The notes beneath the pieces are model-generated. The model did no database searches and was not told where the DNA came from. It saw only the letters and a program-made list of their open reading frames with translations. Below are positions 1,397 to 49,929 of a stretch of DNA of 64,000 nt, piece by piece (position 1 is the first letter of the stretch; every line of letters starts with the position of its first letter). The stretch lies in assembly GCF_026340675.1 (NCBI RefSeq), contig NZ_JAPEOX010000001.1, forward strand, positions 4,340,001 to 4,404,000, given 5' to 3'. Source of the stretch: Streptomyces sp. NBC_01264 (GTDB lineage Bacteria > Actinomycetota > Actinomycetes > Streptomycetales > Streptomycetaceae). Position numbers and translations under genes: made by a program.

Positions 1397-1411
1397 CTGA
1401 TGCGGCGTCAG
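1397..1411. promoter_or_regulatory. Palindromic operator, regulon motif copy 1
   Basis: CTGATGCGGCGTCAG, one mismatch from the perfect form CTGACG-N3-CGTCAG seen four times elsewhere. It lies 15 bp upstream of the EthD-like gene and between two divergent genes. A TetR-type repressor is the inferred ligand; no candidate regulator is in the window. Confidence 0.6.
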
Positions 1412-1510
1412 ATGGGGAGCCCTTGGGGGGCGTTCAGCATCCGATACATAGGTGCCGTCTACACCTTCCCGCGGCTACGATGCGCGCACCCGCCCCCCGA
1501 AGGAGCCCCC

Positions 1511-2758
1511 GTGCCCGCCTCCGCGCCCGCCTCCGCACGCTCCCGCACCACGCCGGTCGCCGCCCCGGCCGCGCCGTCCGCCCCGGCCACCCCTCCCCCG
1601 CCCTTCGCCGCGCGGATCCGTACGACCGCGCCCTCCGCCGTGCGCGAGATCCTCGCCGTCACCGCCCAGCCCGGCATGACCTCCTTCGCCGGCGGCCTGC
1701 CCGCCCCCGAGCTCTTCGACGCCGAGGGCCTGCGGGCGGCGTACGACTCCGCCTTCGCGCGGTCCGCCCGCCGCGCCCTCCAGTACTCGACCACCGAGGG
1801 CGCCCCCGAGCTGCGCGCGGCGGTGGCGGCCCGGCTCTGCGCGCAGGGGCTGGCGACCACCCCGGACGACCTGCTGATCACCACCGGATCGCAGCAGGGG
1901 CTCGGCCTGATCACGACCGCGCTGATCGAGCCGGGCGACGTGGTGCTCGTCGAGAACCCCACCTACCTGGCGGCGCTCCAGGGGTTCGAGCTCGCCGGCG
2001 CCCGGGTGGTCCCCGCGCCGTGCGACGACCAGGGCATCCTTCCCGACGCGCTGGCCGGGCTCGTCGCCCGCGAACGCCCCAAGCTGCTCTACACGATCCC
2101 CACCTTCCAGAACCCGACCGGCCGCACCCTCCCCGCCGACCGCCGCGCCGAGATCGCGGCGGTCGCGGCCCGGCTCGGCCTGTGGCTCCTGGAGGACGAC
2201 CCGTACGGGGAACTGCGCTACGAGGGCCGCGAACTGCCCCGGCTCGCCTCCTACCCCGGGGCCGAGGACCGTACGGCGCTCCTCGGCAGCTTCTCGAAGG
2301 TCATGGCCCCCGGGCTCCGGCTCGGCTGGCTGCGCGCCCCGGCCGCGCTGCTGCGCGGAGCGGTGCTCGCGAAGCAGGCGGCGGACCTGCACACCTCGAC
2401 GGTCGACCAGCTGGCGGCGGCGGAGTACCTGCGGACGGCGGACCTCGACGCGCACGTCGGCCGGGTCCGCGACGCGTACCGGGTCCGGCGCGACGCCCTC
2501 CTGTCGGGCCTGGCCGCCGCGCTGCCGCCGGGCTCCACGTGGAACCGCCCGGAGGGCGGCATGTTCGTCTGGGCCCGCCTGCCCGAGGGCCACGACGCGA
2601 CGGACCTGTTCCGCTCGGCCACCTCCCGGGGCGTCGCCTTCGTCCCCGGAGCCCCCTTCTTCGCCCGCGCCCCGGACCCCCGCACCCTGCGGCTGTCGTT
2701 CACGACGCACACGCCGGAGGAGATCGAGGAGGGCCTGCGCAGGCTGGCGGGAGCCTGA
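1511..2758 (+). CDS. PLP-dependent aminotransferase, class I/II
   Basis: Cytosolic fold-type I aminotransferase of 415 residues, most like the 2-aminoadipate/aromatic (MocR C-domain-like) group but without a GntR DNA-binding domain. Visible landmarks: FAGGLPAPELF near residue 60, ENPTYLAAL, TIPTFQNPTGRTL (substrate/PLP contact), EDDPYGELRYEG, and the Schiff-base lysine in SFSKVMAPGLRLGW (about K263). The GTG at 1511 follows AAGGAG by a normal spacing and replaces an in-frame ATG at 1400, which would lie inside the operator region. The Ala/Pro-rich first 40 residues are probably disordered. Substrate not inferable. Confidence 0.9.
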   Translation: MPASAPASARSRTTPVAAPAAPSAPATPPPPFAARIRTTAPSAVREILAVTAQPGMTSFAGGLPAPELFDAEGLRAAYDSAFARSARRALQYSTTEGAPELRAAVAARLCAQGLATTPDDLLITTGSQQGLGLITTALIEPGDVVLVENPTYLAALQGFELAGARVVPAPCDDQGILPDALAGLVARERPKLLYTIPTFQNPTGRTLPADRRAEIAAVAARLGLWLLEDDPYGELRYEGRELPRLASYPGAEDRTALLGSFSKVMAPGLRLGWLRAPAALLRGAVLAKQAADLHTSTVDQLAAAEYLRTADLDAHVGRVRDAYRVRRDALLSGLAAALPPGSTWNRPEGGMFVWARLPEGHDATDLFRSATSRGVAFVPGAPFFARAPDPRTLRLSFTTHTPEEIEEGLRRLAGA

Positions 2759-2778
2759 GCCTCACCGGGCGGCCGCGG

Positions 2779-3399
2779 TCACCGGGTCGGCAGCCAGGCG
2801 TCGAGGGCGGCTGCCAGCTCGGCGTGCCCGGTGAAGACGTGTCCGCTCATGCCGAGGGCCCGCGCCGCCCGCACGTTCTCCTCGCGGTCGTCGACGAAGA
2901 GGAAGTCGGCGGGGTCGGCCTTCAGGGCGATCACGCAGTGGCGGAACGCCGCCGGGTCCGGCTTGGCCGCGTGGATCTTCCCGGAGAAGGCGACGTGGTC
3001 GAGGTCGTGCAGCCAGGGCTGGGCGGCGAGGAAGGCGTCCGCGTGATCGGCGGGGATGTTGGACAGCAGGGCGACCTCGGCGACCTCCCGCAGGGACTGC
3101 GCGTAGGCGACCATGCGCTCATCGACGCGTGACCAGCTGTCGATGTCGGCGAGCCGCAGCTGCTCGACGGTGTCGGGGTGGGCGGGGAGTGACAGCTGGT
3201 GCAGGACTGCCGTCCAGTACTCGGCTGCGGAGAACTGCCCCGCGTCGTAGGGCAGGCGGCAGGCCCAGTAGGCGGCGTCGAAGGCGTCCGCCGGAGCGCC
3301 ACCGCTCAGCAGGGCCATCGCGTCCATGGCGCCGGGGCGCTGGTGGCGTGCGATGACGCCGAAGAGGTCGAACAGCACGATGGGTCGGTCCGTGGACAC
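2779..3399 (-). CDS. HAD-superfamily hydrolase, subfamily IA
   Basis: Phosphatase-type HAD protein of 206 residues. Motif I is FDLFGV (nucleophile Asp near residue 11, with Leu in place of the more usual second-position residue), motif II is LLSN, motif III includes KPDP, and motif IV is FVDDREENV. The small alpha-helical cap between motifs I and II fits subfamily IA, so a small phosphorylated metabolite is the likely substrate. Starts at GTG behind AAGGA. Converges with the aminotransferase, leaving 20 bp between stop codons. Function beyond phosphatase or haloacid dehalogenase-like is not inferable. Confidence 0.9.
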   Translation of the reverse strand: MSTDRPIVLFDLFGVIARHQRPGAMDAMALLSGGAPADAFDAAYWACRLPYDAGQFSAAEYWTAVLHQLSLPAHPDTVEQLRLADIDSWSRVDERMVAYAQSLREVAEVALLSNIPADHADAFLAAQPWLHDLDHVAFSGKIHAAKPDPAAFRHCVIALKADPADFLFVDDREENVRAARALGMSGHVFTGHAELAAALDAWLPTR

Positions 3400-3471
3400 G
3401 GCGGGGGTTCCTTCCGCGCGGGGGTGGGGGGCAAGGCGCCTCGTGCCAGAGGCGGGTGGGGGCGGTCTGCG

Positions 3472-3654
3472 TCAGGCCCGAGCGGAGCAGCCGTACGGGC
3501 ACGGGCACCGGCCCTCACCGGAGCCGGTACCGGGCTCGCCCTGGAGCAGATCATGCGGGGCCAGGGCCAGGCTCGAGGCGAAGAACGCCGAGGCCATGAC
3601 GCGGGAGGTGGTGCGCAGGCGTCGCAGCAGCGGTGTGCGGGGGGACGTACTCAT
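3472..3654 (-). CDS. Small ORF coupled to MFS gene (CPCPYGC tail)
   Basis: Predicted 60-residue protein whose ATG overlaps the TGA of the upstream MFS gene by four bases (ATGA), a common sign of translational coupling. It starts MSTSPRTPLLRRLRTTSR, has a short hydrophobic stretch (VMASAFFASSLALA) and ends GRCPCPYGCSARA with three cysteines. I do not recognise a family. It could be a metal-binding or membrane-associated accessory of the exporter, a small peptide precursor, or a chance frame. The coupling and the amphipathic-then-Cys layout make it worth recording. Confidence 0.45.
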   Translation of the reverse strand: MSTSPRTPLLRRLRTTSRVMASAFFASSLALAPHDLLQGEPGTGSGEGRCPCPYGCSARA

Positions 3655-5862: not shown

Positions 5863-5877
5863 CTGACGCCCCGTCAG
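5863..5877. promoter_or_regulatory. Palindromic operator, regulon motif copy 2 (perfect)
   Basis: CTGACGCCCCGTCAG, a perfect 6-bp inverted repeat around three bases, 28 bp before the SDR start codon. Same motif as at 31288, 33217 and 49915. Confidence 0.7.
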
Positions 5878-6737: not shown

Positions 6738-9335
6738 ATGACCACTCCGAGTGACGCTCCGACCGAGAACTCGATGCGCCGCGCGCTCCGCCGCGCCCGC
6801 GACGGCGTCGCGCTCGACGCGACCGAGGCGGCCGTACTCCTCCAGGCGCGCGGCGAGGCCCTGAAGGACCTCGCCGCCTCCGCCGCACGGGTGAGGGACT
6901 CCGGGCTCGAGGCCGCGGGCCGGCCCGGCGTCATCACGTACTCGCGCAAGGTCTTCATCCCCCTGACCCGGCTGTGCCGGGACAAGTGTCACTACTGCAC
7001 CTTCGTCACGGTCCCCGGCAAACTGCGCCGCGAGGGCCACGGGATGTACCTGTCCCCCGACGAGGTCCTCGACATAGCCCGCAAGGGCGCCGCCATGGGC
7101 TGCAAGGAAGCCCTGTTCACGCTCGGCGACCGGCCCGAGGACCGCTGGCCCGAAGCCCGCGAGTGGCTCGACGCGCACGGCTACGACGACACCCTCGCCT
7201 ACGTGCGCGCCATGGCCATCCGCGTCCTGGAGGAGACCGGTCTCCTCCCCCACCTCAACCCCGGCGTGCTGTCCTGGTCGGACCTCCAGCGCCTCAAGCC
7301 CGTCGCCCCGTCCATGGGGATGATGCTGGAGACCACCGCCACCCGCCTGTGGTCCGAGCCCGGCGGCCCGCACCACGGCTCCCCCGACAAGGACCCGGCC
7401 GTCCGGCTGCGCGTGCTCGAGGACGCGGGCCGCTCCAACGTCCCGTTCACCACCGGGGTGCTGATCGGCATCGGCGAGTCCTACGGGGAGCGCGCGGACG
7501 CGTTCTTCGAGCTGCGCCGGATCCAGCGCAGCTACCACGGCATCCAGGAAGTCATCGTCCAGAACTTCCGGGCCAAGCCCGACACGGCCATGCGCGGCAT
7601 GCCCGACGCGGAGCTGGAGGAGCTCGCGGCGGCCATCGCCGTGGCCCGCCACATCCTCGGCCCGAGCGCCCGCATCCAGGCCCCGCCGAACCTGGTGGAC
7701 TCCGAGTACGCGCTGCTCATCGGCGCCGGCATCGACGACTGGGGCGGGGTCTCCCCGCTCACCCCCGACCACGTGAACCCCGAGCGCCCCTGGCCGCACA
7801 TCGAGGAACTGGCCGCGCGCACCGCCGCCGCGGGCTTCGAGCTGCGCGAACGCCTCACGATCTACCCGGAGTTCCTCCAGCGCGGCGAGCCGTGGCTGGA
7901 CCCGCGCCTCCTGCCCCACGTGCGCGCGCTGGCCGACGCGGACAGCGGGCTCGCGGACGAGTCCGCGACCGTCGAGGGCCGGCCGTGGCAGGAACCGGAC
8001 GAGGGCTTCACCGCCTACGGCCGCACCGACCTGCACACCACCATCGACACGCAGGGCCGTACCGGCGACCGCCGCGACGACTTCGACGAGGTCTACGGCG
8101 ACTGGGAGGCCCTGCGCGAGGCCGCGGCCCCCGGGATGGTCCCCGACCCCGAGCGCATCGACAGCGACGTACGGGGGGCGCTCGCGCAGGCCGCCGACGA
8201 CCCGACGAAGCTCACCGACGAGCAGGCGCTCGCCCTGCTGCACGCGGACGGCCCGGCGCTGGACGCGCTGTGCCGGATCGCGGACGACCTGCGGAAATCG
8301 GTGGTCGGCGAGGACGTCACGTACATCGTGACCCGCAACATCAACTTCACCAACGTCTGTTACACCGGCTGCCGCTTCTGCGCCTTCGCGCAGCGCCGTA
8401 CGGACGCGGACGCGTACACCCTCTCGCTGGACCAGGTCGCCGACCGGGCCGCGCAGGCGTGGGACGTGGGCGCGGTCGAGGTGTGCATGCAGGGCGGCAT
8501 CCACCCGGACCTGCCCGGGACGGCCTACTTCGACATCGCGCGGGCGGTGAAGGAGCGCGCCCCCGGCATGCACGTGCACGCCTTCTCCCCGATGGAGGTC
8601 GTCAACGGGGCGACCCGCACGGGGATGTCGGTACGGGACTGGCTGACCGCGGCCAAGGAGGCCGGCCTCGACTCCATCCCCGGGACGGCCGCGGAGATCC
8701 TGGACGACGAGGTCCGCTGGGTCCTCACCAAGGGCAAGCTGCCGACGGCGGACTGGATCGACGTGGTCTCCACCGCGCACGAGCTCGGCATCCGCTCCTC
8801 CTCCACGATGATGTACGGCCACGTGGACCAGCCCCGCCACTGGCTGGGCCACTTCCGCACGCTGGCGCGCATGCAGCAGGAGGCGCGGGCCAAGGGGGTG
8901 GAGGGCTTCACGGAGTTCGTGACCCTGCCCTTCATCCACACCAACGCCCCCGTCTACCTGGCGGGCATCGCCCGCCCCGGCCCGACGGTGCGCGACAACC
9001 GCGCCGTGACGGCGATGGCCCGCATCCTGCTCCACCCGCACATCACCAACATCCAGACCAGCTGGGTGAAGCTGGGCTCGGAGGGCGCGGCCGAGATGCT
9101 CCGCTCGGGCGCCAACGACCTGGGCGGAACCCTGATGGAGGAGACCATCTCCCGGATGGCCGGATCCAGTTACGGCTCGTACAAGTCCGTCCAGGACCTG
9201 ATCGCCGTCGCCGAGGCGGCCGGCCGGCCCGCGAAGGCCCGTACGACCCTCTACGGCGAGGTCCCGGAGGAACGCCAGGCCGCGGCCCGCGCCTCGGACG
9301 GCCACCTGCCGGAGCTGCTGCCGGTCCTGGACTGA
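6738..9335 (+). CDS. fbiC: Bifunctional FO synthase (CofG/CofH fusion)
   Basis: Makes 7,8-didemethyl-8-hydroxy-5-deazariboflavin (FO), the chromophore of coenzyme F420, from tyrosine and the ribityl-aminouracil intermediate of flavin synthesis. The 865 residues contain two radical-SAM domains, each with a CxxxCxxC iron-sulfur motif: CRDKCHYC (C80, C84, C87) in the CofG half and CYTGCRFC (C541, C545, C548) in the CofH half. This fused form and length are normal for Actinobacteria. The gene sits 40 bp after the SDR and may share its operator. Three LLM-class, probably F420-using, oxidoreductases lie in the same window, so cofactor supply and use are close together. Confidence 0.97.
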
Positions 9336-17416: not shown

Positions 17417-18312
17417 CTAGGGCGTGTCCGCAATGTCAGTTGGGGAGCCATAGCCGTAGGCAGGCAAGGGTGACCAGGGCTTTGTAGTGGCGGGCTCGTT
17501 TGTCGTAGCGGGTGGCGAGGGCCTTGTTCTGCTTGAGCCGGTTGAAGCAGCGTTCGACGACGTTGCGGCGCCGGTAGACCGCACGGTCGAAACGGCACAG
17601 GCTCTCGCCGCGCCGCATACGCCCGCTGATCTGGTCGACGCGCTCGGGGATCGTGCAGGCGATGCCGCGTCGCCGCAGGTAGGAGCGGATCTTGCGGGAC
17701 GAGTAGCCCTTGTCGCCGACCACCCGCTCCGGCCGGGTGCGGGGCCGGCCGGGCCCGCACCGTTTGATGCGGATGCGGGCCATGACCGGCTCGAACTGCG
17801 TGCAGTCGTTCACGTTCCCGCCGGTGATCGTGAACGCGAGAGGCCGGCCCTGCCCGTCGCAGGAGAGGTGGATTTTCGTGCTCAGTCCGCCGCGGGAGCG
17901 TCCGAGTGCTTCGCCGGTCCAGGGCCCCCTTTTCGGGCCCCGGCTGCGTGCTGGTGAGCTCGCACGATCGTCGAGTCGACGCAGACGATCGTCCAGTCGA
18001 CCTCGCCGATCGCATCCGCGTGCTGCTGGACGTGGGCCAGGAGCCGGTCCCAGGTTCCGTCGGCTGACCAGCGGCGGAACCGTTCATAGACCGTCTTCCA
18101 CGGCCCATACCGCTCCGGCAGATCCCGCCAGGCCGCACCCGTGGACAGCTTCCACAGGATCCCGTTGAGGACCTGACGCCGGTCTCGCACCGGACGACCC
18201 ATCCGGGGCGGAGCCAGCAACGGCCCGATGACATCCCAGGCCTGATCAGTCAGTTCATGACGTCGCACCACGAACGGAGTAACGACCGATCGACATTGCG
18301 GACACGCCCTAG
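17417..18312 (-). mobile_element. IS5-family insertion sequence, complete
   Basis: Element of about 0.9 kb with perfect terminal inverted repeats GGGCGTGTCCGCAATGTC (left 17420-17437, right complement 18292-18309). A CTAG at each end (17417-17420, 18309-18312) fits the CTAG/YTAR target preference and short duplication known for this family. It contains one transposase read through a frameshift. The right CTAG also supplies the stop codon of the adjoining GNAT gene. Perfect ends suggest a recent and possibly active insertion. Confidence 0.93.
17436..18271 (-). CDS. IS5-family transposase (programmed frameshift)
   Basis: Two overlapping frames. The first (129 codons from 18271) begins MVRRHELTDQAWDVIGPLL and includes the first catalytic Asp in VCVDSTIVRAHQHAAG. 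The second runs to 17436 with VGDKGYSSR (second Asp) and RNVVERCFNRLKQNKALATR (catalytic Glu). A run of A4G5 (coding strand, about 17930-17940) sits where the frames must join. A -1 shift there gives the expected continuous GEALGRSRGGLSTKIHL. This layout is normal for IS5/IS427-type elements, so the gene is judged intact rather than broken. Confidence 0.92.
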
Positions 18313-26414: not shown

Positions 26415-26451
26415 TTGGTCAAGCCCAGACGTTCTTGGTCAAGCCCAGACG
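26415..26451. repeat. 17-bp direct duplication at the ALDH 3' end
   Basis: TTGGTCAAGCCCAGACG occurs at 26415 and 26435. The second copy spans the last codons and the stop of the ALDH gene, so the end of the gene was duplicated in tandem. Confidence 0.85.
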
Positions 26452-27953
26452 ATCGACTGCATCTCGCTGTAGGCGTGCAGTGCGTACGAGCCCACGTCCC
26501 GCCCCACCCCGGACCGCTTGAAGCCGCCGAACGGCGCCTCCATGTTCCGCCCGATGGTGTTCACGCCGACCCCGCCCGCCCGCAGCCGCCGCGCCACGCG
26601 GAAGGCGCGCGCCGCGTCCGCGGACCACACGTAGCTGATCAGGCCGAAGTCGCTGTCGTTGGCCAGCGCCACCGCCTCGTCGTCGTCCCCGTCGAAGGGG
26701 ACCACGACGACCACCGGCCCGAAGATCTCCTCCCGGACCACGCGCATGTCGTTGGTGCAGTCGACCAGCAGGGTCGGAGCCACGTAGAAGCCCTTGCCCG
26801 CAGCGGCGCCTTCACCCACCACCGGGCGCTCGCCGCCGAAGGCGATCCGGGCGCCCTCCTTCCGGCCCAGCTCGATGTACGACTCCACGCGGTCCCGGTG
26901 CGCCGCCGAGATGACCGGGCCCACCACGGTGCCGCGCACCGCCGGATCCCCGACCTTCATGAAGGCCAGGTACCCCTGCAGCTTCTCCACCAGCTGCTCG
27001 TACACCGACCGGTGGACGATCACCCGGGTCGGAGCCGTGCAGATCTGCCCGGAGTAGAAGGAGAAGGTGGTGCCGATCCCCATCACCGCCGCGTCCAGGT
27101 CGGCGTCCGCGAGCACGACCGCCGCGCCCTTGCCGCCCAGCTCCATCAGCTGCCGCTTCATGGTGCGGCCGCAGACCTCGGCGATGCGCTGCCCGACGCC
27201 CGTGGAGCCGGTGAAGGACACCATGTCCACGTCGGGTGAGTCCACGGCCGCCTCGCCGACCTCCACCGAGGTGCCGGAGACCACGTTGACCACGCCCGCC
27301 GGGACCCCGGCCTCGTGCAGGGCCTCGGCCATCCGGAACACCGACAGCGGGTCCTGCGGGGCCGGCTTGACGACCACCGTGTTGCCCATGGCCAGCGCCG
27401 GGGCCACCTTGCCCGCCGGGTTGGCCCACGGGTTGTTGTACGAGGTGATGCAGGTGACGACCCCGACCGGCTGGCGCACCTCCAGCGCGCCGAGGATGCT
27501 CGCCGCACCCATCGGGCCCGCCTCGGTGACCTGCGGCGGCAGCCCGCGCTCGACCGGTTCCAGCGCGCCCTTCGCGTACCGGCGGAAGCGGGCCACGCCC
27601 ACCCCGACCTGCATGCCGCGCGCGATCCCGGTGGGGGCGCCCGTCTCGGCCTGGGCCAGCGCCGACCAGGGCTCGTACCCGCGCTGGATGATGTCCGCGG
27701 CCCGGTCCAGGATCGCCGCCCGCTCCTCCGGCTTCGTCCGGGACCAGCCCTCGAAGGCCGCGGCCGCGGCGCGCGCCGCGTCCTCGACCTGGCCGCGCGA
27801 GGCCTCGGGGGCCAGGCCGACGACGGATTCGTCGGCCGGGTTGACCACCTCGTAGTGCCCGCCGGCCGGCTCGACCCACTCGCCGCCGATGAAGAGTCTC
27901 TGGGCGTGGGGCTTCTGCGGGTTGTCCTGCGCGTTGCCCGTAGCGCTGCTCAC
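26439..27953 (-). CDS. Aldehyde dehydrogenase family protein
   Basis: NAD(P)-dependent ALDH of 504 residues, normal length. Visible: substrate/cofactor entry TCITSYNNPWANP, NTVVVKPAPQDPLSV, the nucleotide loop FTGSTGVGQRI, the general-base glutamate in MELGGKGAAVV, the catalytic cysteine in YSGQICTAPTR, and EEIFGPVVVV. It oxidises an aldehyde to an acid. GTG start overlaps the amidohydrolase stop by four bases (GTGA), so the two are coupled. Expected to act on an aldehyde released in the same pathway as the amidohydrolase and LLM genes upstream. Confidence 0.93.
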   Translation of the reverse strand: MSSATGNAQDNPQKPHAQRLFIGGEWVEPAGGHYEVVNPADESVVGLAPEASRGQVEDAARAAAAAFEGWSRTKPEERAAILDRAADIIQRGYEPWSALAQAETGAPTGIARGMQVGVGVARFRRYAKGALEPVERGLPPQVTEAGPMGAASILGALEVRQPVGVVTCITSYNNPWANPAGKVAPALAMGNTVVVKPAPQDPLSVFRMAEALHEAGVPAGVVNVVSGTSVEVGEAAVDSPDVDMVSFTGSTGVGQRIAEVCGRTMKRQLMELGGKGAAVVLADADLDAAVMGIGTTFSFYSGQICTAPTRVIVHRSVYEQLVEKLQGYLAFMKVGDPAVRGTVVGPVISAAHRDRVESYIELGRKEGARIAFGGERPVVGEGAAAGKGFYVAPTLLVDCTNDMRVVREEIFGPVVVVVPFDGDDDEAVALANDSDFGLISYVWSADAARAFRVARRLRAGGVGVNTIGRNMEAPFGGFKRSGVGRDVGSYALHAYSEMQSIVWA

Positions 27954-29689
27954 CTGGTGCTCACCGTCCTCGTGTCCCGGCCCGAACGGAGCACGATCCC
28001 CGGGATCGCCCCCGTGACCTCGTCGTCGCGGATGGTCTCCACGCCGTTGACGCGTACGGACACCATGCCGATGGCCCGCGCGTCCAGCCGCGGGCTGTCC
28101 CCGGGCAGGTCGTGCACGAGCGTCGCGGGGCCGGCCTCGATCCGCTCCGGGTCGAAGAGCACCAGGTCCGCGTGGAAGCCCTCGGTGATCCGGCCGCGCT
28201 CGCGCAGCCCGAACAGCTGGGCCGGGTCGTCGGTGAGCATCCGTACCGCCTGCTCCAGCGGCACCAGCTTGCGCCCGCGCAGGCAGTCCCCGAGGAACCG
28301 GGTCGTGTACGGGGCTCCGCACATCCGGTCCAGGTGGGCGCCGGCGTCGGAGCCGCCGAGCATGACGTCCTCGTGCTGCCAGGTCTCGGCGCGCAGCGCC
28401 CAGCTCGCCGGGTCGTTGTCGGTGGGCATGGGCCAGAGCACCGTACGCAGGTCGTCGTTGGCGCAGATCTCCACCAGGCACTGGAAGGCGTCCTGGCCGC
28501 GCTCGGCGGCGATGTCGTTGACGACGCGGCCGGACAGGCCCTCGTTGGCCTCGCTGTAGGTGTCGCCGATGACGTAGCGGCCGAAGTTGGCCAGGCGCCG
28601 GAAGACCCCGGCCTCCTTGCTGGCCGCGCGGACCAGCATCTCGGCGCGCACGTCGGCGTCGCGCAGCTTCGCGATGCGCTCGGGGACGGGCAGGCCCAGG
28701 ATCTCGCCCCAGCCGGGGATGAGGTTGAGGGCGCAGAAGGTGCCGAGCGACATGTTCATGGGCGTCAGGATCGGCATCGTCAGCGCGACGATGCGGCCGC
28801 CGGCCTTGCGGGCGCGCTCGCTGGGGATCAGCTGGCGCGGCACGCGCTCGGGGACGGAGGCGTCGATGGTGAGCACGTTCCAGTTCAGGGGCCGTCCGGC
28901 GGCCGCGCTCATCTCGACGAAGAGGTCGATCTCCTCGTCGGCGAACTGGTCGAGGCAGCCCGCGACGATCGCTTCGAGCTGGGTGCCCTCGTGCTCGGAG
29001 ACCGCCCGGGAGAGCGCGAGGAGCTCCTCGGGCTTGGCGTGCCGGGAGGCGACGGGGGCGCCGGAGCCGTCGGAGTGGGTGGAGGACTGGGTGGTCGACA
29101 GGCCCCAGGCGCCGGCGTTCATGGCGTCGTGGAACAGGTCGAGCATCGCCTGCATCTGCTCTTCGGTGGGCTGGCCGCCGACGGCGTCCTCGCCCATGAC
29201 GTGCCGGCGCAGCGCGCAGTGGCCGACCATGAAGCCGGCGTTGACCGCGATGCGGCCGTCGAGCGCGTCGAGGTACTCGCCGAAGGTGGACCAGGTCCAG
29301 TCGACGCCCTCTTCGAGGGCCTTGAGCGCCATGCCCTCGACCTTGCTCATCATGCGGCGGGTGTAGTCGGCGTCTTCCGGGCGGGCCGGGTTGAGGGGGG
29401 CCAGGGTGAATCCGCAGTTGCCGCCCGCGACGGTGGTCACTCCGTGGTTCATGGAGGGGGTCGCGTACGGGTCCCAGAAGAGCTGGGCGTCGTAGTGCGT
29501 GTGGGGGTCTATGAAGCCGGGGGTGAGTACGAGGCCTTGCGCGTCCTCGCTGGTCGTGGCGGGTTCGGTGACGGTGCCGGGCTCGGCGATGACGGCGATC
29601 CGGCCGTCGCGTATCCCGACGTCGGCGACGCGGGCGGGGGCGCCGGTGCCGTCCACGACGGTGGCGCCCTTGATCAAGTGGTCGAGCAT
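27950..29689 (-). CDS. Amidohydrolase, N-acyl-D-amino-acid deacylase type
   Basis: Zinc amidohydrolase of 579 residues (family 3, D-aminoacylase-like). Metal ligands: HTHYD in FIDPHTHYDAQ, the central Cys/His elements GGNCGFTLAP and MVGHCALRR, and the late aspartate in MLGGSDAGAHLD. The usual C-terminal ADLVLFDPE closes the beta-sandwich. The length is the common one for the long actinobacterial branch, whose members hydrolyse amides, ureas or ring amides; substrate here unknown. First gene of a coupled pair with ALDH, 453 bp downstream of the LLM gene on the same strand. Confidence 0.92.
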   Translation of the reverse strand: MLDHLIKGATVVDGTGAPARVADVGIRDGRIAVIAEPGTVTEPATTSEDAQGLVLTPGFIDPHTHYDAQLFWDPYATPSMNHGVTTVAGGNCGFTLAPLNPARPEDADYTRRMMSKVEGMALKALEEGVDWTWSTFGEYLDALDGRIAVNAGFMVGHCALRRHVMGEDAVGGQPTEEQMQAMLDLFHDAMNAGAWGLSTTQSSTHSDGSGAPVASRHAKPEELLALSRAVSEHEGTQLEAIVAGCLDQFADEEIDLFVEMSAAAGRPLNWNVLTIDASVPERVPRQLIPSERARKAGGRIVALTMPILTPMNMSLGTFCALNLIPGWGEILGLPVPERIAKLRDADVRAEMLVRAASKEAGVFRRLANFGRYVIGDTYSEANEGLSGRVVNDIAAERGQDAFQCLVEICANDDLRTVLWPMPTDNDPASWALRAETWQHEDVMLGGSDAGAHLDRMCGAPYTTRFLGDCLRGRKLVPLEQAVRMLTDDPAQLFGLRERGRITEGFHADLVLFDPERIEAGPATLVHDLPGDSPRLDARAIGMVSVRVNGVETIRDDEVTGAIPGIVLRSGRDTRTVSTR

Positions 29690-30142: not shown

Positions 30143-31264
30143 CTACGCGCCTTCGCGGAAGCGCGTGGTGCGGTGCACCGGGTCGGTGTCGATGTGCGGG
30201 ATGACGTGCTCGCCGATGAGCTTGATGGTGGTCATCGTGTCCTCGGGCGAGACGCCGGTCGGCAGGCCGAAGGAGAGCTGGTCGGCGCCGGCCTCCTCCC
30301 AGCGCTTGCACTGGGCGCGCACCTCGGAGGGGTCGCCGCAGATGAGCAGCTCCTCCTCGATCAGCAGCTCGATGATCTCCGCGTTGTACTCGGGGAGGAT
30401 CTCGGGCCACTCGGGGATCATCTCGGGGCGCGGGAAGGTGTCGTGGTAGCGGAAGACCAGCGACTGGAAGCGGTTCATGTTGGCGTTGACGGCGATCTCG
30501 ACGGCCTTGTCGTGGGTCTCGGCGCAGATCGCGGTCGAGGTGACCATGACGTTGTCGTTGACGAAGGCGCCGATGGCCTTCGCCTCCTGGATCGCGGTCT
30601 TGTACTGCTCCAGCACCCAGGCCATGTCGGAGACCTTCTGGACGCTGAAGCCGAGGACTCCGAGGCCCTTCTTGGCGGCCATTGCGTACGAGGAGGGGGA
30701 GCCGGCGGCGTACCACATGGCCGGGTGGGCCTTGCCGTACGGCTTGGGGAAGATCTTCCGGGGCGGGAGGGACCAGTGCTTGCCCTGGAACCCCTCGTAC
30801 TCCTCCTGGAGGAACATCTTGGGGAACTCGGCGATGGTCTCTTCCCAGATCTCCTTGGTGCCGTTCATGTCCTCGATGCCGGGAAGGAAACCGAGGATCT
30901 CGTGGCTGCCGGCGCCGCGGCCGGTGCCGAACTCGAAGCGCCCCTTGGAGAGGTGGTCGAGCATGGCGACCTTCTCGGCCACCTTGACCGGGTGGTTGAC
31001 CGGGGCGAGCGGGTTGAAGATGCCGGAGCCGAGGTGGATGCGCTCGGTGGCGTGAGCGAGGTACCCGAGGAACACCTCGTTCGCCGAAAGGTGCGAGTAC
31101 TCCTCCAGGAAGTGGTGCTCGGAGGCCCAGGCGTACTTGAACCCGGACTTGTCCGCCTGGATGACGTACTCGGTCTCCTCGATCAGCGCCTTGTGCTCTG
31201 CCTCGGGGTCGACCTTGGACCGTGCCTCAGGCACGTATCCCTGCACAAAGAGCCCGAATTCCAA
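30143..31264 (-). CDS. LLM-class flavin/F420-dependent oxidoreductase
   Basis: Luciferase-like protein of 373 residues. FGLFVQGYVPEARSK opens the barrel, then YAWASEHHFLEEYSHL (the EHHF block found in bacterial-luciferase-type enzymes), IHLGSGIFNPLAPVNHPV, and EKVAMLDHLSKGRFEFGTGRG, the conserved cofactor-site block around residues 100-125. FMN or F420 could be the cofactor; F420 is favoured by nearby fbiC. Two copies of the regulon palindrome lie upstream at 24 and 86 bp. Probably an early oxidation step for the substrate later handled by the amidohydrolase and ALDH. Confidence 0.92.
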   Translation of the reverse strand: MEFGLFVQGYVPEARSKVDPEAEHKALIEETEYVIQADKSGFKYAWASEHHFLEEYSHLSANEVFLGYLAHATERIHLGSGIFNPLAPVNHPVKVAEKVAMLDHLSKGRFEFGTGRGAGSHEILGFLPGIEDMNGTKEIWEETIAEFPKMFLQEEYEGFQGKHWSLPPRKIFPKPYGKAHPAMWYAAGSPSSYAMAAKKGLGVLGFSVQKVSDMAWVLEQYKTAIQEAKAIGAFVNDNVMVTSTAICAETHDKAVEIAVNANMNRFQSLVFRYHDTFPRPEMIPEWPEILPEYNAEIIELLIEEELLICGDPSEVRAQCKRWEEAGADQLSFGLPTGVSPEDTMTTIKLIGEHVIPHIDTDPVHRTTRFREGA

Positions 31265-31287: not shown

Positions 31288-31302
31288 CTGACGTTGCGTC
31301 AG
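31288..31302. promoter_or_regulatory. Palindromic operator, regulon motif copy 3 (perfect)
   Basis: CTGACGTTGCGTCAG, 24 bp upstream of the LLM start codon at 31264. Confidence 0.72.
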
Positions 31303-31349
31303 ATTTGATGTCACGACTGTTCCATCGCGGGGGCGGGAGCGTCAATACC

Positions 31350-31364
31350 TGACGCTCCATCAGA
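31350..31364. promoter_or_regulatory. Palindromic operator, regulon motif copy 4 (one mismatch)
   Basis: CTGACGCTCCATCAG, 62 bp from copy 3 (about six helical turns), so two bound dimers would face the same side of the DNA. Confidence 0.6.
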
Positions 31365-31391: not shown

Positions 31392-32186
31392 CTAGGCGAT
31401 GCTGACGCCCGCCATCCAGCCGCCGTCGATCACGAACGGCTGGCCGGTGATGTACGAGGAGTCCTCGCTGGTCAGGAACAGCGCCAGCTTGGCTATCTCC
31501 TCCGGCTGACCCACCCGGCCCATCGGCACCACGCGCTTGTAGAGGTCCGCCATGGCGTCCCGGGCCTCCTGCGGCAGGTCCGCCGGATTCGTGTTCCCGG
31601 GCGTGGCCATCGCGGTGTCCACGGCCCCCGGGCACATCGCGTTGACCCGGATGTTCTTCGCGGCCAGTTCCAGCGCGGCCACCCGGGTCAGGCCGAGGAT
31701 CGCCGCCTTGGTCGCCGCGTACGTGCCCACGTACGCCATGCCCGTCAGGCCCGTGTACGAGGAGGTGTTCACGATCGTGCCGCCGCCGGCCGCCTCGATC
31801 TCCGGGGCCACCGACTTGATGCCGAGGAAGGCACCGACCTGGTTGACCTGGACCACCTGCTGGAACTCCTCCAGCGGGGTCGCGGTCAGTTCGTTGAAGC
31901 GCAGGATGCCCGCGTTGTTGACCAGGCCGTTGATCTCGCCGAAGGCCTCCTTGGCCACCGCGATGGCGGCCGCCCAGTCCTCCTCCCGGCTCACGTCCAT
32001 CCGTACGTACCGGGCCCGGTCCTCGCCGATCTCCTTGGCGACCGCCGCGCCCTGCTCGTCCAGCACGTCGCCCAGGAGCACCTTGGCGCCCTCCGCGGCG
32101 AAGAGCCGGGCCTCCTGCTCGCCCTGGCCGCGCGCGGCGCCCGTGATGATGACGACGCGTCCGTCCAGCTTGCCTGGCTTGCCCAT
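31392..32186 (-). CDS. SDR oxidoreductase, hydroxysteroid-dehydrogenase-like
   Basis: Classical SDR of 264 residues: ITGAARGQGEQEA cofactor loop, GDVLDEQG acidic turn favouring NAD, NNAGI, the Ser of NTSSYTGL, YAATKA (Tyr and Lys), and C-terminal DGGWMAG. The pattern is close to 3-alpha,20-beta-hydroxysteroid dehydrogenase from Streptomyces, though that does not prove a steroid substrate. It starts 18 bp after the LLM gene at 32205 and is presumably co-transcribed with it from the operator at 33217. Confidence 0.93.
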   Translation of the reverse strand: MGKPGKLDGRVVIITGAARGQGEQEARLFAAEGAKVLLGDVLDEQGAAVAKEIGEDRARYVRMDVSREEDWAAAIAVAKEAFGEINGLVNNAGILRFNELTATPLEEFQQVVQVNQVGAFLGIKSVAPEIEAAGGGTIVNTSSYTGLTGMAYVGTYAATKAAILGLTRVAALELAAKNIRVNAMCPGAVDTAMATPGNTNPADLPQEARDAMADLYKRVVPMGRVGQPEEIAKLALFLTSEDSSYITGQPFVIDGGWMAGVSIA

Positions 32187-32204: not shown

Positions 32205-33191
32205 CTAGTCGTTGAGGAGCGGGCCCACTTCGGACCCGAAAGCCGTGATCTGGTCGATGAGTTCGGCCCGGTCGCGGTTGCGGAAGCGGACCTGGATCTG
32301 GTCGATGCCGATCGCCTTGTACGCGCGCAGCGACTCGGCGAGCGCCTCCGCCTTGCCGGTGAGGGTCCGGCGGCCGGTTTCCCAGCCGGGCTCGCCGACG
32401 TACAGCGGGGCGGTGATCGCGCCGAACTCCACGGGTCCCGTGACCCCGGCCTCGGCGCGCAGCTCCTTGATCCGGGCGATCTGCGCCGGGAGCTTGTCGA
32501 GGGGGTCGCCCTGCGGGAGCCAGCCGTCGCCGCGCACGGCGGCCCGGCGGACGGCGGCGGGCGAGGAGCCGCCCACCCAGACCGGGATCCGGGACTGGAC
32601 GGGCCGGGGCAGCTGCCCGAGGTCCTTGAAGGAGAACAGCTCGCCCTCGAACTCCGGGTACTCCTCGGGGCCCAGCGCGGCGCGCAGGGCGTCGAGGGTC
32701 TCGTCGAGGACGGCGCCGCGGCGCGCGAAGTCCACGCCGAGCACCTCGAACTCCTCCTTCACGTGCCCGGCGCCGACGCCGAGGATCAGCCGGCCGCCGG
32801 AGAGGTGGTCGACGGTGGCGTACTGCTTGGCGCTGAGCAGCGGGTGGCGCAGGCCAAGGATGGCGACGTGGCTGAGCAGCCGTACGTTCTCGGTGATCCC
32901 GGCCAGGAAGGAGAGGGTGGCGATCGGGTCGTACCAGATGGTGCTCATGGGGCCGGCCATGTGCCGCGGGATGGCCACGTGGTCGCAGGTGGCGACGTAG
33001 CCGAAGCCCGCCCGGTCGGCCGCCCTCGCTATCGCGGCGAGGTCCGCCGCGCCCGCCGTGGCCTCCCAGGGCTCGGCGTAGATGGTGCTCTGCGACTGGA
33101 TCGGGAGCTGCATCCCGTAGACCAGCCGACCTTCCGGAAACACGCGCGCCATGGGCCGTACCCGCCTCGTCCTCGACTGCCGATTCGTCAT
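32205..33191 (-). CDS. LLM-class F420-dependent oxidoreductase
   Basis: Luciferase-like protein of 328 residues (315 if it starts at the ATG at 33152). Recognisable blocks: VYGMQLPIQSQST, YVATCDHVAIPRHMAG, VRLLSHVAILGLRHPLLSAK, and TVDHLSGGRLILGVGAGH (cofactor block). This arrangement matches the TIGR03619-type F420-dependent family. The farther start is chosen because it puts the palindromic operator 26 bp upstream, matching the 15-30 bp seen at the other regulon genes; neither start has a strong ribosome binding site. Followed by the SDR in one operon. Confidence 0.9.
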   Translation of the reverse strand: MTNRQSRTRRVRPMARVFPEGRLVYGMQLPIQSQSTIYAEPWEATAGAADLAAIARAADRAGFGYVATCDHVAIPRHMAGPMSTIWYDPIATLSFLAGITENVRLLSHVAILGLRHPLLSAKQYATVDHLSGGRLILGVGAGHVKEEFEVLGVDFARRGAVLDETLDALRAALGPEEYPEFEGELFSFKDLGQLPRPVQSRIPVWVGGSSPAAVRRAAVRGDGWLPQGDPLDKLPAQIARIKELRAEAGVTGPVEFGAITAPLYVGEPGWETGRRTLTGKAEALAESLRAYKAIGIDQIQVRFRNRDRAELIDQITAFGSEVGPLLND

Positions 33192-33216: not shown

Positions 33217-33231
33217 CTGACGGGTCGTCAG
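33217..33231. promoter_or_regulatory. Palindromic operator, regulon motif copy 5 (perfect)
   Basis: CTGACGGGTCGTCAG, directly upstream of the LLM-SDR operon. Confidence 0.72.
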
Positions 33232-33327: not shown

Positions 33328-33972
33328 GTGGATCTCTTTCTGACACTGGTCAGCGGGCTGGCGTGGACCCTCGTGTACGCCGAGGCGATCCGGGTGGGGC
33401 TGCGCGACCGGACGTACGCGATGCCCGTCGCCGCGCTCGCGCTGAACTTCGCGTGGGAATCGACCTATGCCGTACGGGAGTTCAGCGTCGGGGTCTCCGC
33501 GCAGGGCATCGTCAACGTGGTGTGGGCCCTCGCCGACATCGTCATCGTGTACACGTATCTGCGCTACGGGCGGGCCGAGTTGCCCGGCTTCGTGACCCGG
33601 CCGCTGTTCGCCGTCTGGACCGCGCTCCTCTTCGCGAGCGCCTTCGCCGTGCAGTGGCTCTTCCTCGCCCACTTCGGCCACCACGACGCGAGCCGCTACT
33701 CCGCGTTCCTGCAGAACCTGCTGATGTCCGGCCTGTTCATCGCCTTCTACGCGAGCCGGCGCGGCCCGACCGGACAGTCCCTGGTCATCGCGGTCGCCAA
33801 ATGGCTCGGCACGCTCGCGCCGACCGTCCTCTTCGGTGTCATCGAGGACGCCCCATTCATCCTCGGGCTGGGGCTGCTCTGCTGCGTCTTCGACCTCGCG
33901 TACATCGCACTGCTCGCCCGGAACCCGGCCGCGCGCGAGCCCGTCAGAAGCCCTTCGGCCCCATCACGATGA
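33328..33972 (+). CDS. Membrane protein resembling transmembrane terpene cyclases
   Basis: Integral membrane protein of 214 residues with about seven hydrophobic segments, starting at GTG (MDLFLTLVSGLAWTLVYAE). After TM1 comes GLRDRTYAMPVAALALNFAW, continuing ESTYAV. This matches the K/RDKTYxMP...N-x-x-W-E-x-x-Y signature of the Pyr4/PaxB/DmtA1 class of membrane terpene cyclases, in which that Glu is catalytic. A late Asp in the last helix region (CCVFDLAYIALL) could be the second acid. No prenyltransferase or epoxidase lies beside it. Alternative: an uncharacterised membrane protein of the same fold. Its 3' end overlaps the convergent L,D-transpeptidase by 29 bp. Confidence 0.72.
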   Translation: MDLFLTLVSGLAWTLVYAEAIRVGLRDRTYAMPVAALALNFAWESTYAVREFSVGVSAQGIVNVVWALADIVIVYTYLRYGRAELPGFVTRPLFAVWTALLFASAFAVQWLFLAHFGHHDASRYSAFLQNLLMSGLFIAFYASRRGPTGQSLVIAVAKWLGTLAPTVLFGVIEDAPFILGLGLLCCVFDLAYIALLARNPAAREPVRSPSAPSR

Positions 33973-47092: not shown

Positions 47093-47164
47093 TCCCCCGC
47101 TCCCCGCTCCCCGCTCCCCTCCGACCTCTCCCTCCCCCCGCACCCCCGGTCGTACGCTGGTCCG

Positions 47165-47617
47165 ATGCACCCTTCACCTCGAACTCCCCGGCAGGCCGCC
47201 AGAATTGTCGTGCTCAACCCCGCCGGATCCGTGTTCCTCTTCCGCGAGAACAACGTGGAAGTCGGCATCCACTGGCTGCCGCCCGGCGGTGGCATCGATC
47301 CCGGGGAGACGCCCGAGGAGTGCGTACGGCGGGAGTTGCGGGAGGAGACGGGCTGGACGGACCTGCGACCGGAGCGGCTGCTCTGCACCTGGGAGCACGA
47401 CTTCACCCACCAGGGCATCCCCGTACGCCAGCACGAGCACATCTACGTGACCACCGGCCCGCACCGCGATCCGGTACCGGAACACCCCGAGGCCCACTGG
47501 CGATGGCTGTCCCCGCACAGCCTCGCCACCCTCGGCGAACCCCTGTGGCCACCCCGCCTCGCCGAACTCCTCGACGAGTCCCCCACGGAGCCGGTCCACC
47601 TGGGGCTCCTCGCCTGA
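47165..47617 (+). CDS. NUDIX hydrolase
   Basis: Protein of 150 residues with the complete Nudix box GGGIDPGETPEECVRREL-REETG around residues 42-65, which binds the divalent metal and cleaves nucleoside-diphosphate-X substrates. AARIVVLNPAGSVFLFRE upstream is the normal first strand region. Specific substrate not evident. Single gene, convergent with the protease. Confidence 0.92.
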   Translation: MHPSPRTPRQAARIVVLNPAGSVFLFRENNVEVGIHWLPPGGGIDPGETPEECVRRELREETGWTDLRPERLLCTWEHDFTHQGIPVRQHEHIYVTTGPHRDPVPEHPEAHWRWLSPHSLATLGEPLWPPRLAELLDESPTEPVHLGLLA

Positions 47618-47643
47618 CCGCCCCGGTCCGGGGAGGGCCCCGG

Positions 47644-48510
47644 CTAGCGGCCCCCGCCCGCCGGGCCCGTTGCCCGGGCGTACAGGGCGGATGCGTAGTC
47701 GGTCAGGATCGTGCTCGTCGAGACGTCGTCCGTGTCTCCGCCGGTCAGGACTCCGATGATCTTTCCGTCCGCCGCGATCCATGCGCTGCCGCTCGTGCCG
47801 GTGGGGAAGTCCGCGCAGTCGAAGCGCTGTTCCGTGGCGCTGAGCCGTACCGCGCGGGACACGCAGGTGCGCGGGACCTGGCGGCCCGACGGGTAGCCCG
47901 TCACCGTGACCTGTTCGTCCGTGCGGCCCGTGGTGTCCAGGACGGCGGCTCCGGTGACGTCCTCGACGGCGCGGCCCTCGGCGTCGGGGGCGAGGCGGGC
48001 GAAGGCCAGGTCGTAGTCGTCGTCCGTGCCGTCCGACCAGCGCGGGTCCTCGAAGACCTCCGCGATCCTCCAGGTGCCGTACGGGGCCCGCCCGTCCGCG
48101 TACGCGGGTGCGAAGGAGGCTCCGCGTTCGCCGGACCGGCCGGCGCTCAGGCAGTGGCCGGCGGTGGCGATCAGGTTCCGCCCGGGGCTGTGGACGACGG
48201 TCGCCGTGCAGTAGTGGTCGCCGGTCGCATCGCCCGCGAACAGCGCTCCCGCGAAGGCGACGGCCCCGCCCGGCGCGGAGGGTGACGCCGACGGTCCGGG
48301 GTTCCGGCCATCGGACTGTTGACGCCGTTCCGGTGCTTGCGACTGCGATGACGGCTGCGAAGGCGGCCGCGAAGGCGTCGTCGTGCGGGCCGCCTTCGCG
48401 TGCCCGCGGGCCTTGCCGTCACCGGCAGGGACCACCTTCGTCATGGCCGCGGACGCTCCGAGCGCCACCGCCGAGCAGAGCACCGCGGTCACCACGGTCC
48501 GCTTGTCCAT
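47644..48510 (-). CDS. Secreted trypsin-like serine protease
   Basis: Exported protein of 288 residues: hydrophobic N-terminal segment (VVTAVLCSAVALGASAAMT), a Ser/Pro/Gln linker of about 50 residues, then a chymotrypsin-fold domain. The catalytic triad is readable as His in NLIATAGHCLS, Asp in DDYDLAFARL and Ser in FPTGTSGSAW. It probably acts outside the cell. ATG at 48510 follows GGAGGGG; an in-frame GTG 9 bp upstream is the alternative. Confidence 0.9.
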   Translation of the reverse strand: MDKRTVVTAVLCSAVALGASAAMTKVVPAGDGKARGHAKAARTTTPSRPPSQPSSQSQAPERRQQSDGRNPGPSASPSAPGGAVAFAGALFAGDATGDHYCTATVVHSPGRNLIATAGHCLSAGRSGERGASFAPAYADGRAPYGTWRIAEVFEDPRWSDGTDDDYDLAFARLAPDAEGRAVEDVTGAAVLDTTGRTDEQVTVTGYPSGRQVPRTCVSRAVRLSATEQRFDCADFPTGTSGSAWIAADGKIIGVLTGGDTDDVSTSTILTDYASALYARATGPAGGGR

Positions 48511-48673
48511 CAGAGACACCCCTCCCCTTTGCTGCGGCGAAGCATGCCCTGCCCGCGGTGACCCCCGCAAGGCGAGGCGGCCCAGGGGGTCAGGTCAGTG
48601 CGCAGATGCGGCGGCGGCCCCCGGGAGACCTCCCCGGGGGCCGCCGCCCACTACGCCACCGCCACCGCCGCCG

Positions 48674-49894
48674 CTACGCCCCCGGCCACAGCCCTTCCGG
48701 GGTCAGCCCCAGCAGATCGATCGCGTTGCCGCGCACGATCCGGTCCACCACGTCCGGGGCCAGGTGCCCCATCTGGGACTCGCCGACCTCGCGGGATTTA
48801 GGCCACGTGGAGTCGGAGTGGGGGTAGTCGGTCTCGTAGAGGACGTTGGCGACGCCGATGGAGTCCAGGTTCTTCAGGCCGAAGGCGTCGTCGAAGAAGC
48901 AGCCGAAGACGTGCTCCGCGAAGAGCTCCGACGGCGGCCGCAGCACCTTGTCGGCGACGCCGCCCCAGCCGCGGTTCTCCTCCCAGACCACGTTCGCGCG
49001 CTCCAGGATGTACGGGATCCAGCCGATCTGGCCCTCCGCGTACATGATCTTGAGGTTCGGGAAGCGTTCGAACTTGCCGCTCATCAGCCAGTCCACCATC
49101 GAGAAGCAGCAGTTGGCGAAGGTGATGGTGGAGCCCACGGCCGGCGGGGCGTCCGCCGAGGTGGAGGGCATGCGCGAGGAGGAGCCGATGTGCATGGCGA
49201 TGACCGTGCCGGTCTCGTTGCACGCCTCCAGGAAGGGGTCCCACTCGTCCGTGTGGATGGAGGGGAGCCCGAGGTGGGGCGGGATCTCCGAGAAGGCGAC
49301 CGCCCGGACCCCGCGCGCGGCGTTGCGGCGGACCTCGGCGGCGGCCAGGCGGGCGTCCCACAGCGGGATGAGGGTGAGCGGGATGAGGCGGCCGTTCGCC
49401 TCCGGGCCGCACCACTCCTCCACCATCCAGTCGTTGTACGCGCGCACGCCGAGCAGGCCCAGCTGGCGGTCCTTGGCCTCGGTGAAGGTCTGGCCGCAGA
49501 AGCGCGGGAAGGTCGGGAAGCAGAGGGCGGACTGGACGTGGTTGACGTCCATGTCGGCGAGCCGGTCGGGAACCGAGAAGGAGCCCGGGCGCATCTGCTC
49601 GTACGTGATGACTTCGAGCTTGATCTCGTCGCGGCTGTAGCCGACGGCCGTGTCGAGTCGGGTGAGGGGTCGGTGCAGGTCCTCGTACACCCACCAGTCG
49701 CCTATCGGTCCGTCGTCGCCCTTGGCCCCCATCACGGGGGCGAACTTGCCTCCCAGGAAGGTCATTTCTTTCAGGGGGGCGCGGACGACGCGGGGGCCGA
49801 CGTCGTGGTACTTGGACGGGAGCCGGTCCCGCCAGACGTTGGGGGGCTCAACCGTGTGGTCGTCCACCGAGATGATCTTCGGGAAGGTCTCCAT
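48674..49894 (-). CDS. Amidohydrolase family 2 protein
   Basis: TIM-barrel amidohydrolase of 406 residues, of the decarboxylase/ACMSD-related group (PF04909). It opens with ISVDDHTVEPPNVW (metal site, D-x-H-like with Asp in place of the first His). Further barrel residues are at MHIGSSSR, MYAEGQIGW and the late ETDYPHSDSTWP, where the Asp is a common ligand. These proteins hydrolyse or decarboxylate ring-derived acids. A perfect regulon palindrome lies 20 bp upstream, tying it to the LLM/SDR operons. Divergent from the AfsR-like gene. Confidence 0.92.
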   Translation of the reverse strand: METFPKIISVDDHTVEPPNVWRDRLPSKYHDVGPRVVRAPLKEMTFLGGKFAPVMGAKGDDGPIGDWWVYEDLHRPLTRLDTAVGYSRDEIKLEVITYEQMRPGSFSVPDRLADMDVNHVQSALCFPTFPRFCGQTFTEAKDRQLGLLGVRAYNDWMVEEWCGPEANGRLIPLTLIPLWDARLAAAEVRRNAARGVRAVAFSEIPPHLGLPSIHTDEWDPFLEACNETGTVIAMHIGSSSRMPSTSADAPPAVGSTITFANCCFSMVDWLMSGKFERFPNLKIMYAEGQIGWIPYILERANVVWEENRGWGGVADKVLRPPSELFAEHVFGCFFDDAFGLKNLDSIGVANVLYETDYPHSDSTWPKSREVGESQMGHLAPDVVDRIVRGNAIDLLGLTPEGLWPGA

Positions 49895-49914
49895 GTCCTC
49901 ACGGTAGCGTCAAT

Positions 49915-49929
49915 CTGACGAACCGTCAG
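49915..49929. promoter_or_regulatory. Palindromic operator, regulon motif copy 6 (perfect)
   Basis: CTGACGAACCGTCAG, 20 bp upstream of the amidohydrolase start and 24 bp from the 22-bp direct repeats of the divergent regulator gene. Confidence 0.72.

Follow-up and report, generated by a model that had tools for sequence, protein, structure and literature searches.

A palindromic operator and a candidate PF19352 TetR-family repressor of a predicted CoA-dependent catabolic regulon in Streptomyces

Genes and palindromes of the locus

The DNA stretch analysed here (the window) comprises 64,000 nucleotides of the genome of Streptomyces sp. NBC_01264, C1:4340001–4404000. It contains genes for an EthD-like protein, short-chain dehydrogenases/reductases (SDR), luciferase-like monooxygenase-type (LLM) oxidoreductases and an amidohydrolase-type protein of family PF04909, which are associated with intergenic copies of the palindrome CTGACG-N3-CGTCAG (Table 1). 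These copies are predicted to be operators of a TetR-family repressor, for which a gene of family PF19352, located 16 kb beyond the window, is the candidate. An initial annotation made from the sequence had reported six copies, four perfect and two with one mismatch, and all six were located; the copy placed at 31350 actually starts at 31349. A coding-potential gene finder placed each of them between genes, as had been claimed, and the flanking sequence differs between copies. Five copies had been described as lying 15–30 bp before a start codon and the sixth as paired with one of them. The gaps were found to be 14, 28, 23, 25 and 20 nt for the starts at 1382, 5906, 31264, 33191 and 49894, respectively, and the copy at 31349 pairs with that at 31288. 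The gene finder placed two of these five starts later, at 31246 (vs 31264) and 33152 (vs 33191). Gaps of 14–28 nt before five starts would fit repression by blocking of the promoter or of the transcription start.

Table 1. Predicted operators, predicted target genes and neighbouring features of the window; positions are those of the window and bits refer to the operator weight matrix unless a protein family is named.
Feature	Position	Strand	Remarks
Target, EthD-like protein, 281 aa	537..1382	-	named in the initial annotation
Operator, one mismatch, CTGATGCGGCGTCAG	1397..1411		before the EthD-like gene; 20.8 bits
Operator, perfect	5863..5877		before the SDR gene; 20.9 bits
Target, SDR oxidoreductase, 263 aa	5906..6697	+	behind operator 5863
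fbiC, FO synthase CofGH	6738..9335	+	protein match 1518 bits; 40 bp behind the SDR gene
Short predicted gene	17436..17813	-	by eye resembling a transposase remnant
Aldehyde dehydrogenase and Amidohydro_3 protein	26439..29689	-	behind the LLM gene
Target, luciferase-like (LLM) oxidoreductase	30143..31264	-	TTG start
Operator, perfect	31288..31302		proximal to the LLM gene; 27.8 bits
Operator, one mismatch	31349..31363		second for the LLM gene 30143..31264; 25.8 bits; 61 bp from 31288
Target, SDR	31392..32186	-	second gene, behind the LLM gene 32205..33191
Target, F420-dependent LLM oxidoreductase	32205..33191	-	TIGR03619, 237.6 bits (cut-off 166.9)
Operator, perfect	33217..33231		between the LLM–SDR pair and the divergent Pyr4-like gene; 19.1 bits
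Pyr4-like transmembrane terpene cyclase family protein	33328..33972	+	PF25129, 80.2 bits; divergent from operator 33217
Target, PF04909 protein	48674..49894	-	nearest to DitZ and PtmU3
Operator, perfect	49915..49929		before the amidohydrolase-type gene; 29.0 bits
BTAD/NB-ARC/TPR regulator	50114..53239	+	adjoins the intergenic region of operator 49915
Peptide, 62 aa, with repeated DNxAAG units	53417..53605	+	behind the BTAD/NB-ARC/TPR regulator

Abundance and genomic context of the motif

The four perfect copies in the window compare with 0.014 expected under a first-order Markov model, in agreement with the earlier view that chance does not account for them. The same model predicts 2.3 perfect copies for the whole 10.67-Mb genome, which contains 14, eight of them inside 93 kb. 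As a control, the reversed pattern has no perfect copy genome-wide; allowing up to one mismatch, it is found 27 times against 115 for the real motif. Among perfect 6-n-6 inverted repeats of the window with spacers of 0–8, CTGACG with N3 is the commonest. In the 304-kb region around the window, CTGACG arms occur eight times at the N3 spacing and once at all other spacings from 0 to 11 together.

A 19-bp position weight matrix (PWM) was built from 263 unique intergenic sites of other Streptomyces loci, the sites having been picked by consensus; its consensus arms give the full operator as ATCTGACG-N3-CGTCAGAT. The 304-kb region contains eight perfect and nine one-mismatch sites, of which 16 are intergenic and lie within 4341397–4450804, and the seventeenth is inside a gene outside this 109-kb stretch. 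Similarly, the PWM finds 16 sites scoring at least 19 bits, none of them coding and all in the 109-kb stretch, the next best match reaching 12.7 bits. The region is 75% coding, yet its 16 best operator matches are all intergenic. The motif is therefore not equally frequent in coding DNA; equal frequency there had been named as grounds for abandoning the proposal. In 80 other Streptomyces loci, 6 of 290 sites are coding. A single catabolic regulon over 50 kb had been proposed; the regulon is retained, while its extent is revised to a 109-kb cluster with further members elsewhere on the chromosome.

Of the 115 sites that differ from the motif at no more than one position, 60 were examined for their genomic context, 17 in the 304-kb region and 43 elsewhere; the other 55, all with one mismatch, are located either on other contigs or on C1 past 3.41 Mb, the 304-kb region excepted. 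Thirty of the 43 sites elsewhere are intergenic and 13 are in predicted genes; of the 14 that score at least 16 bits, 13 are intergenic. Four of the six perfect sites outside the cluster directly precede fitting genes, namely an acyl-CoA ligase gene and, recognised by eye in all three cases, a ChsH2-like gene with a thiolase gene, a gene for a flavin adenine dinucleotide (FAD) reductase and a gene for an LLM enzyme. One-mismatch sites elsewhere that score at least 19 bits are associated with a CYP125 P450 gene and a divergent thiolase gene; a gene for a double acyl-CoA dehydrogenase of 710 aa; a ligase gene together with one resembling nitronate monooxygenase genes; a gene encoding a START-type protein; a gene of the acetoacetate-decarboxylase fold that neighbours another TetR gene; and a gene whose DUF7064 match falls just below the cut-off.

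Candidate regulator

A TetR-type repressor had been suggested initially, and the comparative evidence favours the PF19352 gene as its probable source. This gene (C1:4420082–4420729) encodes a 215-aa protein with matches to PF19352 (TetR_C_38; 245.4 bits) and PF00440 (26.8 bits, cut-off 24). Among 126 TetR_N matches of the genome, a number obtained from 150 scored of 354 first-look candidates, that at C1:4420169 is the only one inside the cluster. The predicted structure (predicted local distance difference test score, pLDDT, 91.8) has an all-helical TetR fold, the nearest known fold being that of EthR, with template modelling (TM) scores of 0.79/0.87 at about 20% identity. EthR also provides the best sequence matches in the PDB (E about 1e-7), which cover the N-terminal 75–78 residues only. 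The recognition-helix residues SPATFYQYF are nearly invariant across the PF19352 family.

In the genome of NBC_01264 the regulator start codon is inside a variant site, CTGACGGCATGACAG. A two-mismatch variant, CTGACGNCATGACAG, lies over the start codon of the regulator gene in 80 of 80 Streptomyces loci (the nearest TetR loci, all from Streptomyces, one of them with a TetR protein identical to that of NBC_01264) and also in genomes G010 and G018. The initial annotation had suggested looking for a TetR gene with the motif at its own promoter; in these Streptomyces loci the site at the regulator gene is the two-mismatch variant. In distant genomes a site near the regulator start is perfect (G154) or has one mismatch (G246 and G314), and one of two regulator copies in G304 stands in third position behind an operator. 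Among genomes of the same order, the regulator is located within the site cluster in G014, G017, G018 and G019 and beside two sites in G015; in G016 and G020 its contig has no listed site, and the best site near the G020 regulator has two mismatches and is 198 bp away.

In 20 of 21 genomes (that of NBC_01264 and 20 relatives) a close orthologue of the regulator (at least 57% identity) accompanies 2 to 22 perfect motifs; the exception, G013, has no motif and only a weak TetR match. A wider sample included 296 evenly drawn Actinomycetota genomes, co-occurrence being counted outside the genus Streptomyces. Strong PF19352 matches, defined as at least 80 bits (a threshold chosen after the scores were seen), were found in 11 genomes, which have 0, 1, 1, 2, 5, 5, 7, 7, 11, 11 and 11 perfect sites. 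At least five perfect sites are present in 7 of these 11 genomes vs 2 of the 276 others (Fisher p 4e-10, kinship ignored), a value that overstates the case because related genomes are not independent. Strong PF19352 matches thus track motif abundance, even in distant families. The two exceptions without a strong match are G182, with seven sites, and G120, with five, and four copies of each were read. Those of G182 belong to a repeated element, since their flanks are near-identical; three of those of G120 look coding by eye and the fourth is ambiguous. From these sequence comparisons, the PF19352 protein is likely the best candidate for the reader of the sites.

Conservation of operators upstream of orthologous genes

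A lack of motif conservation before orthologues in other Streptomyces had been put forward as a second ground for abandoning the proposal; operators were found to be kept upstream of orthologous targets. Nine other genomes contributed 14 stretches in which 57 sites were examined; four of these sites are inside predicted genes, and one of the four, in G009, is an EthD operator overlooked by the gene finder. Sites in other genomes precede orthologous genes for the acyl-CoA ligase, the thiolase–ChsH2–hydratase group, the SDR and the cyclase, as well as the ADP-forming ligase operon, the paired acyl-CoA dehydrogenases, and the LLM and EthD proteins.

A search of 41 Streptomyces genomes, including that of NBC_01264, for orthologues of three targets found them in 32, 31 and 31 genomes; 30 loci per target, the NBC_01264 locus included, were scored, and a PWM score of at least 16 bits was counted as a hit. 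The loci used for building the PWM may overlap those of this test. An operator is present upstream of the CYP125 orthologue in 30 of 30 loci. For the amidohydrolase-type gene the number is 29 of 30, with a score of 15.8 in the thirtieth, and the site is perfect in all 30. EthD orthologues have an operator in 26 of 30 loci; the four misses include one perfect site scoring 14.9, one site that reads N and two loci with no site. All 180 control windows scored below 16 bits. Spacer letters vary while the orthologous promoters keep the palindrome.

In other Streptomyces, 13 of 20 regions have the EthD and SDR genes diverging over one common operator; in NBC_01264 they are 4.5 kb apart, each with a separate site. 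An SDR orthologue is present in 18 of these 20 regions, and in 16 of them an operator lies close to the start of the gene. The earlier target list stands for the EthD, SDR, LLM and amidohydrolase genes; fbiC, also listed there, was rejected as a conserved member. It possibly belongs to the regulon by read-through behind the SDR gene in NBC_01264, and among 11 other regions showing fbiC it directly follows the SDR gene in only one. F420 synthesis is therefore not a conserved part of the regulon, and the fbiC link is lineage-specific, either a local accident or a recent recruitment.

Predicted target genes and their neighbours

The predicted target set comprises roughly two dozen breakdown genes, most of them identified from Pfam or PDB matches and some by eye. 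They encode SDRs, F420-type LLM enzymes, PF04909 proteins, a CYP125 P450 and a flavin reductase, along with acyl-CoA ligases, acyl-CoA dehydrogenases of one or two domains, enoyl-CoA hydratases, and pairs of a ChsH2-like and a thiolase/Ltp2-like protein. The CYP125 target is close in sequence to characterised steroid C26-monooxygenases; it scores 518 bits against solved CYP125, vs 320 for CYP124 and 185 for CYP142. The product of the amidohydrolase-type gene in the window is, judging by its sequence, probably a dinuclear metal oxygenase and not a hydrolase: three histidine and three carboxylate ligands of the PF04909 fold are present, their positions being inferred from the alignment. In contrast to the dinuclear PF04909 oxygenases DitZ, PtmU3, AibH2 and SfbO, the targets here include a flavin reductase, and no Rieske protein is found among those annotated. 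The EthD-like protein has no Pfam or NCBIfam match at E 0.001.

The thiolase gene and its ChsH2-like partner are separated in NBC_01264 by 2.1 kb (C1:4406875–4409022) with a G+C content of 0.66 and no called gene; the two genes are consecutive in G014, G019, G009 and G007, and the gap is perhaps a decayed insertion. The Pyr4-like gene is possibly a second target of the operator at 33217, over which it faces the LLM operon; such an arrangement may indicate a terpenoid link. The aldehyde dehydrogenase and Amidohydro_3 genes behind the first LLM gene have no operator according to the PWM; relatives of both in G304 (53% and 59% identity) each have one directly upstream. The BTAD/NB-ARC/TPR regulator and the 62-aa peptide beyond the operator at 49915 form what we take to be an afsR–afsS arrangement.

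Proposed mechanism and known systems

Taken together, the palindromes are very probably operators of an EthR-like, putatively autoregulated PF19352 TetR repressor controlling a CoA-dependent catabolic regulon. The operators, their conservation, the target identities and the regulator co-occurrence were computed, and binding, repression, inducer and substrate are inferred from them. A PF19352 repressor dimer would bind ATCTGACG-N3-CGTCAGAT at the core promoter or within the 5′ leader and keep the targets off. The repressor would be released when an intermediate of the pathway, in all likelihood a bulky acyl-CoA, occupies the C-terminal pocket, and the targets would form one CoA-dependent catabolic pathway. 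Lifting of repression by a bulky acyl-CoA or acid is expected because of the analogy to KstR and the EthR-like fold. The weakest step is the substrate; a polycyclic isoprenoid or a sterol-side-chain-like acid is plausible, an assignment that falls a little short of probable.

EthR of Mycobacterium tuberculosis, a TetR repressor with ethA as target and a long operator, is the closest match of the regulator in both PDB sequence and fold. The identity is low, however, and the C-terminal domain of the regulator belongs to its own Pfam family, PF19352; the target set predicted here is dispersed and catabolic. The operator motifs of KstR and KstR2, the regulators of the sterol regulons of mycobacteria and their relatives, differ in sequence from the present operator. 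Like the system proposed here, these regulons combine a TetR repressor with many scattered genes of CoA-dependent lipid breakdown; a possible inducer for KstR is also named (PMC9782250). They share CYP125 and ChsH2- and Ltp2-like enzymes with the predicted targets; unlike them, PF19352 is found in several other families of the phylum. MftR, the mycofactocin regulator, is likewise a TetR regulator, reported to be acyl-CoA-induced and to act on lipid-linked redox-cofactor biosynthesis (PMC8728441), but its regulon is different.

Weighing of the evidence

Several observations weigh against the proposed regulon and its assignment to PF19352. With up to two mismatches the window contains nine copies against 7.3 expected, and this lack of excess means that the signal is carried only by sites with at most one mismatch. 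Two further arm words with N3 spacing equal CTGACG in number in the 304-kb region (eight each). A site of 20.6 bits, C1:1665685, is inside a predicted gene, and C2:2292197 and C7:37783, two of the six perfect sites outside the cluster, are not followed by any gene that makes sense as a target. A second TetR gene, C1:2661967, adjoins an operator-like site of 19.4 bits. The mce import operon was considered as a target and ruled out, there being no operator at its promoter. The regulator's own Streptomyces site has a low PWM score (9.4 bits), and part of its conservation is codon-driven because the site overlaps coding bases. The regulator start has no good site in G016, G020, G045, G072, G060, G304, G056, G122, G036 and G070. 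In the phylum sample, G070 has a PF19352 protein (119 bits) and no perfect site, and the numbers are small in G060 (1), G036 (1) and G122 (2); four genomes among the 276 with weak matches just above the family cut-off have 0, 0, 0 and 1 sites.

The strong site nearest to the mce operon, C1:407893 (18.7 bits), is about 4 kb upstream and closer to another gene; a predicted gene of 379 aa follows it at a distance of 178 bp. The operator-like site beside the second TetR gene, C1:2661901, is between that gene and the acetoacetate-decarboxylase-fold gene.

It is very unlikely that the sites are genuine operators belonging to a single regulon but are read by another protein, such as the TetR protein encoded at C1:2661967 or a regulator of some other family, with the PF19352 gene only travelling along. 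The position of the C1:2661967 gene beside its 19.4-bit site fits such a reader, and PF19352 fails to explain G070; against this, the co-occurrence of protein and motif spans distant families of the phylum, the recognition helix is near-invariant, and the PF19352 gene has a site at its own start in all 80 loci, has one nearby in three distant genomes, and lies inside the site cluster in four same-order genomes. An origin of the palindromes as structural or mobile sequence, such as terminator-like hairpins or pieces of repeated elements, can be regarded as extremely improbable. It would account for the near-identical flanks of the four copies read (of seven) in G182, a distant actinobacterium, and for the perfect copy at C2:2292197, which sits in a longer palindrome with no start codon near and is hairpin-like rather than operator-like; the copies of the window, however, differ in their flanks and stand shortly upstream of start codons, and orthologous promoters retain copies with varying spacer letters.

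A further alternative keeps the same regulator and operators and takes the pathway for ordinary, full steroid catabolism, the counterpart of the KstR regulon. The CYP125 orthologue under an operator, with its 518 bits to solved CYP125, is consistent with this, as are the ChsH2-like and Ltp2-like genes among the targets, the 710-aa double-domain acyl-CoA dehydrogenase and the occurrence of an mce operon in the genome. A published genome survey, however, reports that 55 of 57 Streptomyces genomes lack a steroid pathway (PMC4810484), yet a CYP125 orthologue is present in 32 of the 41 sampled here; the mce operon lacks an upstream operator, and no ring-degradation gene is found among the annotated targets, no genome-wide search for such genes having been made. 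Ordinary steroid catabolism is thus considered rather unlikely.

Significance

An autoregulated TetR catabolic regulon is of a known kind. The initial annotation had noted the motif as unfamiliar from the literature. Among open-licence papers, none was found for CTGACG-N3-CGTCAG as an operator, for its assignment to PF19352 or for the pathway, and none listed has a title or opening lines describing this regulon; the papers listed for looser forms of the motif are unrelated. The PF19352 family, for which the literature searched gives neither an operator nor a regulon, is now provided with a predicted operator and regulon, and its distribution across the phylum is described.

The operator can serve as a label that joins scattered genes into one likely pathway. 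These include genes for PF04909 proteins annotated as hydrolases, which are probably oxygenases, and for CYP125 in a genus mostly free of steroid pathways. Tentatively, and with the balance tipped somewhat towards doubt, an undescribed degradation of polycyclic isoprenoids (diterpenoid-, hopanoid- or sterol-side-chain-like) may be common throughout Streptomyces, from most of which steroid pathways are absent. It would combine dinuclear PF04909 oxygenases and CYP125 with enzymes linked to F420 and with repeated cleavage steps of the ChsH2/Ltp2 type, and would be under the control of one PF19352 repressor across Actinomycetota, with an operator nearly unchanged between distant families. The question of the substrate of the operator-linked enzymes becomes directly testable.

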